The position numbers and the translations under genes are program-made. A stretch of 64,000 nt of DNA from Gammaproteobacteria bacterium (GTDB taxonomy: Bacteria > Pseudomonadota > Gammaproteobacteria > Pseudomonadales > Azotimanducaceae), in NCBI GenBank assembly GCA_018656865.1, contig JABHYO010000150.1, forward strand, positions 1 through 64,000. The letters run 5' to 3'. Under the pieces are notes generated by a model. The model ran no database searches. It was not told the origin of the DNA and saw only the letters and a program-made list of their open reading frames with translations. The number at the start of each line of letters is the position of its first letter. Position 1 is the stretch's first letter. Positions 43,812 through 45,439 of this stretch are shown one piece after another.

Positions 43812-44558
43812 TTATTCACGACCGGAAAAAAAACCTAGTACTTTCCGAATCTCTCCCTTATCTGACCGATCGAGTCGACATCTGTTTCTATATGCCAGAT
43901 AAAATCGCAGGCGATCGGTTCTGCTCAACGACCATTTGCCAACCTTGTCGAGGCAGGCCAGGTCCTTAATTCTTCCTCTGGCGAGAAAAGGACCCGCCAT
44001 GGTCCTGCCCATCGGGCAGTCGATAATATAAACCCCCGGCTCCCGATCAAGCTCAACCAGAATGTTACGCCATTTCAGATCATTGTGAACAAAACCGCGC
44101 TCATGCATCGTGCGAACCGCCTCAGAAAGCCGACGGATGACCGCTTTCCGCCATTCCCGATCAAGCAAGAACTCACTTTCTTCCCTGGCAAGATCAGCAA
44201 GATCCCGAGTACCTTTGATCTCCCTGGTAACCAGCGCCCCCCGATAACCGTTCTCATCCTTTTCTTCACCGTAGGCCTCAACATCTGCTGTCGCGATACC
44301 CATTGCTCGAAACAGCAGCAGATTCTCCCATTCCGCCCGAAGCCTGCTCCTGCCTATCCAGCGGCGCAGACCCCGTCCACGACTGGCGTAACTCTTGACG
44401 TAATATGCTGCAGATCCTGCTTCAACACGAACGAGTCTGCTCATCCAGTTGGCGTTAATCTCCTCGCCTTCAGTGTTAAGGGCATCAGCGAGTGTGGCGA
44501 ACCGCAACCTCGCATCATCACTGCGCACCGTCCAATGACATCCCACGATACTGTTCAT
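43812..44558 (-). CDS. WaaP/RfaP-family LPS core kinase
   Basis: RGFVHNDLKWRNILVELDREPGVYIIDCPMGR catalytic loop; starts inside the last ATGA of the 20-bp repeat. Confidence 0.85.
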   Translation of the reverse strand: MNSIVGCHWTVRSDDARLRFATLADALNTEGEEINANWMSRLVRVEAGSAAYYVKSYASRGRGLRRWIGRSRLRAEWENLLLFRAMGIATADVEAYGEEKDENGYRGALVTREIKGTRDLADLAREESEFLLDREWRKAVIRRLSEAVRTMHERGFVHNDLKWRNILVELDREPGVYIIDCPMGRTMAGPFLARGRIKDLACLDKVGKWSLSRTDRLRFYLAYRNRCRLDRSDKGEIRKVLGFFSGRE

Positions 44559-44578
44559 GGCTGTTGATCTGGGCTCAT
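44555..44578 (-). CDS. Putative mini-ORF 3: MSPDQQP*
   Basis: ATG AGC CCA GAT CAA CAG CCA TGA; stop overlaps the ATG of the 43812-44558 gene as ATGA. Confidence 0.4.
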   Translation of the reverse strand: MSPDQQP

Positions 44579-44598
44579 GGCTGTTTACCTGGGCTCAT
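44575..44598 (-). CDS. Putative mini-ORF 2: MSPGKQP*
   Basis: ATG AGC CCA GGT AAA CAG CCA TGA; overlaps both neighbours as ATGA. Confidence 0.4.
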   Translation of the reverse strand: MSPGKQP

Positions 44599-44618
44599 GG
44601 CTGTTTATCTAGGCTCAT
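44595..44618 (-). CDS. Putative mini-ORF 1: MSLDKQP*
   Basis: ATG AGC CTA GAT AAA CAG CCA TGA; its ATG overlaps the stop of the waaP-like gene. Confidence 0.4.
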   Translation of the reverse strand: MSLDKQP

Positions 44619-45439
44619 GGCTGTTCGAGCAACCTGGCAGCGTTACTAGACAACTGATCATGATCCTGAAGGTAGAGCTTTTCCGCTCTTTTCAGCACAC
44701 GCTTCCAGAGTCCTTCTCTACCACGCAGCGCAGACCTTAGATCACCATCCGAATAGGTACGCACGAACCGCAACAGATCCCGCCGTGTCAGGTTTTTTTC
44801 CAAGGCAGAGAATAGGAGACCACCCAGATCCTTCTCCAACCATCGCGCTGGCACCGCCTTTCTCAACTGTGCCCGGTGAAGATCGATCAGGTGGAGCCCC
44901 GGTTCTCCCCGGACCGGGTAATCCATCAGGAAGTGACAAAGGTAGTAGTCCCGATGGTTAATTCCAGCCCCATGCATACCACTCGCCATCTGTGCAATCT
45001 TTTGAATCAGCCGGCGCTTCAAAACCAGATCTTCAGTCTCAAAATCTTCCAGGCTGATTTTATTTTCGAGAGAGCATGTCAGTATCGCCGACCTGCGCTT
45101 CGAAGGATCCATGCCCTCCTCACAAAAAAGTGCTGCAGTCATAGTCGGTACACCCGCTCTCTCAAGGTGGCTGATTGCCAACCATTCGTTTCGAGCACCA
45201 AGAACCGGAAGCCGGCCCTGGACGAGGTTTTTGAATATCTCCTTCCAGCCAACCCCATGGTGAATCTTTGCAAAATAGTTCCGATCCCCGATCCGTACCT
45301 TGATGGTTCGGCGATTCGCAACTTCCCGATAAATTTCCCCGGTAAGATGATCCACCTGATTGAAAAGATCGTTCGGTGAAAACCTATCGGCCAGTTCGGT
45401 GGCTACGTAGTACTGAGTCACGCTTCGCCAACCGCGCAA
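44615..45439 (-). CDS. waaP: LPS core heptose kinase WaaP/RfaP
   Basis: AKIHHGVGWKEIFKNLVQGRLPVLGARNEWLAI; GINHRDYYLCHFLMD; downstream of the waaG-like gene. Confidence 0.9.
   Translation of the reverse strand: MRGWRSVTQYYVATELADRFSPNDLFNQVDHLTGEIYREVANRRTIKVRIGDRNYFAKIHHGVGWKEIFKNLVQGRLPVLGARNEWLAISHLERAGVPTMTAALFCEEGMDPSKRRSAILTCSLENKISLEDFETEDLVLKRRLIQKIAQMASGMHGAGINHRDYYLCHFLMDYPVRGEPGLHLIDLHRAQLRKAVPARWLEKDLGGLLFSALEKNLTRRDLLRFVRTYSDGDLRSALRGREGLWKRVLKRAEKLYLQDHDQLSSNAARLLEQP

Follow-up and report, generated by a model that had tools for sequence, protein, structure and literature searches.

We analysed a 64,000-nucleotide stretch (the window) of contig JABHYO010000150.1, from the assembly of a gammaproteobacterium of the family Azotimanducaceae, order Pseudomonadales (GCA_018656865.1; 3.7 Mb in 221 contigs; source genome G000), in which a short tandem array separates two lipopolysaccharide (LPS) kinase genes. 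On the minus strand, a WaaP-like LPS core heptose kinase gene (44615..45439; an open reading frame [ORF] matching PF06293 at an E value of 2.1e-45, with homologs named heptose I kinase) is followed by a second Kdo/WaaP-family kinase gene in the WapP position (43812..44558, minus strand; ORF, PF06293 at an E value of 3e-22), which starts at the last ATGA of the array. The array lies at 44555..44625 on the same strand, has a period of 20 bp and the core AACAGCC-A-TGAGC, and is a member of a dispersed repeat family. Tandem Repeats Finder reported it as the sole array in the window (44555-44625, period 20, 3.5 copies, 92% matches).

The waaP gene ends in CTC GAA CAG CCA TGA (LEQP*, the asterisk marking the stop), and the TGA of its stop codon (44615-44617) belongs to the first repeat core. 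Direct reading of the minus strand places three 20-bp units (44559-44618) at this point. They encode three mini-ORFs, whose translations were confirmed: MSLDKQP* (ATGAGCCTAGATAAACAGCCATGA, 44595..44618), which has ATGA in common with the waaP stop and with mini-ORF 2; MSPGKQP* (ATGAGCCCAGGTAAACAGCCATGA, 44575..44598); and MSPDQQP* (ATGAGCCCAGATCAACAGCCATGA, 44555..44578), all on the minus strand. The 5' end of the kinase gene, ATGAACAGTATC, follows mini-ORF 3, with the ATG at 44558. Each mini-ORF is a complete frame of 8 codons that overlaps both neighbours by ATGA, and the unit length is of the form 3n+2. A ladder of three ATGA-linked, self-contained units with a 20-bp period had been described in the original prediction for this DNA, and direct reading, translation and Tandem Repeats Finder all bear out that anatomy.

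Relative to the unit consensus, every unit carries one private base: T at position 8 in unit 1, G at position 11 in unit 2 and C at position 13 in unit 3. These substitutions argue against an echo of the assembly process, and we rejected that origin. Since all three also alter the mini-peptide, the peptide sequence bears no sign of conservation. A chance origin was rejected as well, because the window has a single case of four ATGA at period 20 and 100 dinucleotide shuffles gave none. Mini-ORFs arise automatically when a segment with an ATGA overlap is duplicated in tandem, provided that its length is 3n+2 and it lacks an in-frame stop. Among 75 distinct period-20 ATGA arrays in viral contigs, the mini-ORF frame was open in 47 but only 2 bridged two frames of at least 60 codons, even loosely. 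The ladder form is therefore cheap, whereas the bridging position between two genes is not. The exact unit had no match in viral sequences, so these point to no virus source.

When the waaP-kinase region was used as a DNA query in the genus, it matched many unrelated loci, all through the array. In the loci fetched, the core AACAGCC-N-TGAGC(G/C) was again repeated in tandem, at periods of 17-34 bp that cover all three residues modulo 3. The consensus unit of the window, ATGAGCCCAGATAAACAGCC, is identical at 17 of 20 positions to ATGAGCGAGGATAAACAGCC, the unit of an array before an amidohydrolase-like gene in a congener (G016), at an unrelated locus and with an equal period. The source genome holds 15 exact cores at about nine loci, and 51 cores versus 21 in the control when one mismatch is allowed; 10 of 17 congeners have 9-50 exact cores per genome, whereas the backwards pattern occurs 0-1 times. 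Across the order, the 13-base core is present in 99 of 298 genomes, many of these being single, chance-level matches, and the richest genomes contain 116, 114, 57, 41, 33 and 30 copies. Tandem pairs of the ATGA version were found in 38 of 397 genomes of the order. The base that precedes TGA can be A, C, T or G and is often C or T, and an ATG is formed only with A. Because the periods span all residues modulo 3 and N is so often C or T, neither the ATG nor the 3n+2 period is a rule of the family. A signal of the DNA-uptake type was rejected, as the copies number tens and are clustered, rather than thousands of single ones. The repeat family had no match in Rfam, and a nonexhaustive search of open-licence papers found no description of it in Pseudomonadales.

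A longer element of 80-84 bp, ACAGCCNTGAGCGNTACTTGG...TGGGACCT...GTAGACGNNCATAAA, also recurs in the genus, often in tandem at about 82 bp. Its conserved blocks are ACAGCCNTGAGCG, TACTTGG, TGGGACCT, AGCGGG and GTAGACGNNCATAAA. It was located at nine loci in the genus (L234, L274, L278, L304, L334, L336, L340, L353 and L357) and on four contigs of the source genome (G000:C25, C106, C191 and C209), which has 14 matches in all. No covarying helix, Rfam match or transposase was identified for this element of approximately 83 bp. The short units possess both of its ends, ACAGCCNTGAGC and ..ATAA, and for this reason the 17- to 30-bp units appear, in this genus, to be remnants of the long form that lost its interior and multiplied in tandem.

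The placement of arrays was surveyed with genes called as the longest ORFs, without a gene finder. In the genus set, arrays were in the sense orientation to the upstream gene 28 times versus 9. A co-directional upstream gene was present for 63 arrays, and in 26 of them its stop was exactly the TGA of the first core. Stops at or inside an array were that TGA in 12 of 16 and 14 of 17 cases, where frame alone would give one third (p = 8e-4 and 5e-5). Arrays were also found between divergent genes, between convergent genes and within genes. The cores might instead be bound by a regulator or processing factor that recognises DNA or RNA, a reading consistent with the sense bias, the copies in divergent intergenic regions and the conserved 6-1-6 core between variable spacers; the intergenic TAACTGA repeats of marine Beggiatoaceae have been suggested to act in a similar way. 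We regard this as unlikely, given that no covariation was seen in the long form, that Rfam gave no match and that arrays are not consistently common to the species at the junctions compared. The core itself explains one feature of the ladder: CAG CCN TGA encodes Gln-Pro-stop whatever the base N, and so array-borne stops have Gln-Pro endings. These endings are thus no evidence of a slow stop kept by selection. The neighbours of arrays include ubiG, amidohydrolase-like, hslR-like and other unrelated genes, and array positions show no preference for LPS genes. The occurrence of the same repeat at many unrelated genes and in divergent and convergent intergenic regions speaks against a device dedicated to LPS core phosphorylation.

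Gene names at these other loci, such as amidohydrolase-like and hslR-like, are our reading of the protein sequences. Tandem ATGA repeats of period 3n+2 were indeed found at gene junctions in other genomes. In G016, five period-20 units (MSEDKQP*) precede a 436-aa amidohydrolase-like gene. In G013, five units of period 23 (MSEKCEQP*) precede ubiG, and four units of period 29, starting with TTG or ATG, precede an hslR-like gene. G319, from another family of the order, has a ladder of two period-20 units (MSTRAQP*). A unit ORF with ATGA overlaps is present in the window array and at L226, L228 and L418, with a mixture of TTG and ATG at L332, and is lacking from the many arrays with N = C or internal stops. 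At the ubiG-gph junction, units with ATG occur in G005 and units with C/T in G011 and G004; full-length elements stand there in G014 and a different hairpin element in G001, and the array is absent from G013, G016 and the source genome. The copy number between species ranges from 0 to 9 units. At the amidohydrolase junction, there are five period-20 units in G016, two period-19 units in G013 and an ordinary overlap in other species. Where an orthologous junction is empty, its two genes show an ordinary overlap of the ATGA, TGATG or GTGA type. Since sister species differ at both junctions, the ladder at a given junction is neither conserved nor required. That orthologous junctions hold C/T arrays, elements of about 83 bp or nothing likewise tells against a device for LPS core phosphorylation.

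Three further observations concern arrays at these loci. At L308 (G001), a different hairpin element, GGGGTCGGAGTAAAGTGCCAGAGTAACTACTCTGGCACTTTACTCCGACCCC, lies on both sides of ubiG, where sister species carry core arrays; because it occupies the same junctions, the ubiG flanks look like an insertion hotspot. At L366, L367, L376, L389, L419 and L425, arrays of period 18 or 21 at ATGA junctions are in frame with the downstream gene and, as judged from the reading frames, would extend the encoded protein by a repetitive N-terminal tail. A period-18 array at L228:4796-4915 (minus strand) lies in an open frame that reads as a repeated LSEKTA peptide, close to the end of what may be a coding region.

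The waaP/kinase junction was compared with relatives of which the nearest share only approximately 60% protein identity. In homologous pairs from congeners, Pseudomonas, Azotobacter and other genera, the two genes mostly meet in a plain ATGA, TGATG or GTGA overlap, and among the matches listed none had an array at this junction. Metagenomes hold proteins of near-identical strains, one identical (P0001) and one with a single substitution (P0121). The original prediction had proposed that unit number sets the level of the kinase, varies within populations and so tunes LPS core phosphorylation. Each unit is indeed self-contained, species differ in unit number at other junctions (from 0 to 9 at ubiG-gph), and in Mycobacterium tuberculosis the copy number of mycobacterial interspersed repetitive units (MIRUs) varies at about 3e-3 per locus and year (PMC3635867). 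However, the private substitutions in all three units indicate an array old enough to diverge, which should lower slippage; no array occurred at any other waaP locus examined; and LPS genes are not favoured by array positions. A copy-number rheostat is accordingly very improbable.

Next in the operon is a 475-aa double-kinase gene in the WapQ position (42372..43799, minus strand; ORF and domain search). The order of the kinase genes is that of waaP-wapP-wapQ in Pseudomonas. Adjoining waaP, a single ORF of 771 aa (45418-47733, minus strand) contains two tandem copies of a WaaG-like GT4 glycosyltransferase, apparently through internal gene duplication or fusion.

The register was examined by a walk from each stop to the nearest ATG in 41 co-directional arrays, a set in which orthologous loci were not all collapsed; in 24 of them the walk arrived at the downstream gene. 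When one or two random bases were added to each spacer, a mean of 20 arrays still reached it. Because shifted spacers barely alter the success of the walk, selection for the ladder register is not detectable in this test. The walk bypassed the next gene in none of the real arrays versus 2.9 expected, which points weakly to register selection. Selection of a 3n+2 register had been suggested by four bridging arrays in the genus, all 3n+2, and was undone by the in-frame (3n) bridging cases found across the order (L366, L367, L376, L389, L419 and L425) and by the register-shift null, which accounted for most of the effect. Bridging arrays of both the 3n+2 and the 3n types occur; no strict 3n+1 bridging array was seen among the few loci.

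The initiation signals at the junction were predicted from pairing with the anti-Shine-Dalgarno (anti-SD) sequence. At the kinase start, the predicted pairing energy is -1.9 kcal/mol, weak relative to the window median of -2.8, in line with a weak ribosome site at the kinase itself. The strongest predicted pairing of the ladder is at the start of mini-ORF 3 (-4.9 kcal/mol, AGGT in unit 2), and in this model mini-ORF 3 could be a ribosome entry point. The kinase start lies 56 nt past the waaP stop. According to PMC10666635, an intergenic gap of 14 nt lowers reinitiation in Escherichia coli by 40-80% and one of 38 nt lowers it by 80-100%, and other work is cited there as reporting long-range coupling in synthetic operons. 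Since 38 nt already costs 80-100% and the SD is weak, a distance of 56 nt would leave the kinase largely uncoupled without the intermediate overlaps.

Taken together, the array is probably a translation-transparent, tolerated insertion of a dispersed MIRU-like family at a coupled junction, and not an evolved dial. A copy of this Pseudomonadales interspersed repeat sits precisely where the waaP stop and the kinase start meet in an ATGA overlap. Ribosomes that finish waaP would then pass through the mini-ORFs by serial termination and reinitiation at -4 nt, each intermediate overlap resetting the spacing to -4 nt and keeping the kinase coupled across the extra 56 nt; some ribosomes would probably be lost at each step. 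Such a relay would be the simplest way to keep the kinase coupled, because the spacing is restored at every step. Of the serial reinitiation originally proposed, the plausibility has thus gained from the -4-nt spacing of each step and the weak kinase SD, while its occurrence is something we infer from sequence. A bolder version, in which a mobile family targets NTGA stops, ATGA copies survive as relays, selection spares only those registers at coupled junctions that hand ribosomes on, and copy number there tunes the downstream gene, seems to us rather doubtful.

Several points weigh against the tolerated, translated insertion. Half of the genes in the window have an SD no stronger than -3 kcal/mol, and the kinase may therefore be initiated independently. 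Arrays with N = C or T stand at co-directional junctions, which shows that an ATG ladder is not needed for the family to be tolerated. None of 11 other family- or order-level genomes with the core or tandem ATGA pairs yielded the form of about 83 bp, and derivation of the short units from it thus holds at most for this genus. Finally, the flank AACAGCCATGA may be native, and the array may then have grown from the native junction, because four WaaP homologs of 62-65% identity (P0004, P0011, P0017 and P0036) likewise terminate in LEQP or LGQP; judging by these endings, their waaP/kinase junction may carry a single core.

The first two of these points bear on the possibility that the same element is an inert insertion, in which the kinase is started by 30S subunits at its own ATG or at mini-ORF 3, the mini-ORFs are not usefully translated and coupling is irrelevant. 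Register-shifted arrays do nearly as well in the walk model, many junction arrays have no ATG, and the array RNA is not unusually structured (z 0.38). The weak SD at the kinase ATG is unfavourable to this explanation, as is the tight overlap kept at the waaP/kinase junction in most species examined, which suggests that coupling matters; we hold it possible but the less likely account. The last point bears on local slippage, by which the native junction (GCCAGGT..AACAGCCATGA) would have expanded into the array, whose likeness to the family would then be due only to the pre-existing AACAGCCATGA. CCAGGT is common to unit 2 and the waaP 3' end, and the Gln-Pro ends of the four distant homologs agree with such an origin. 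But TGAGC and GATAAACAGCC in the units also occur in arrays of equal period at unrelated loci in the genus, and the native right flank is TGAAC, which makes local slippage quite unlikely. Insertion of a family member at a coupled junction remains our preferred reading, and the repeat family itself is a more interesting find than the ladder.

The closest known system is the mycobacterial MIRU, although unit size and the common CTGA sites keep us from classing the array as one. In both cases, short dispersed repeats lie at gene junctions, in tandem copies and at many loci per genome. MIRU insertion is restricted, in the original description, to DTGA sites of coupled genes; the present family is not so confined, as N is often C and placements are divergent and convergent too. 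MIRUs insert at start codons in such a way that an ORF inside them is coupled at -4 nt, an arrangement thought to keep the damage small (PMC12548453); the unit ORF of the window array, L226, L228 and L418 likewise overlaps the neighbouring stop and start by ATGA. The senX3-regX3 MIRUs of 77 and 53 bp (PMC4213456) and the 20-bp unit are all 3n+2 in length. In contrast, the units here are 20 bp, and 17-34 or about 80-84 bp in the genus, rather than of the 77- and 53-bp type, and MIRUs belong to another phylum; the likeness is one of architecture. If the relay works, repeats that neutralise themselves as a stop/start hand-over would be known from two lineages, apparently unrelated, and small repeats in general would find a refuge at coupled junctions.

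The TAACTGA repeats of Beggiatoaceae are also short tandem direct repeats at many junctions with a patchy distribution, mostly just 5' of starts, with some overlapping the upstream stop (PMC4679880). They differ in sequence and in their 7-bp unit, which has stops in all three frames and so gives no mini-ORF ladder. Minicistron and bicistronic designs deliver ribosomes by way of a short ORF that ends in an overlap with the following start codon. This hand-over (also PMC12548453) resembles the ladder, but the array is natural, repeated and placed between two genes rather than behind a promoter. Each ladder step is the standard -4 overlap of ATGA termination-reinitiation as set out in PMC6728339 and PMC10666635, with the difference that several 8-codon ORFs are chained here between two genes, for which the parts of the coupling literature covered contain no measurement. 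If the relay works, the junctions described above would also offer natural multistep reinitiation chains of 2 to 5 units with periods of 20-29 bp, plus siblings without ATG and empty ones at the same junction. Whereas the usual studies use a single overlap, these natural chains would provide a test of how often one ribosome can reinitiate.
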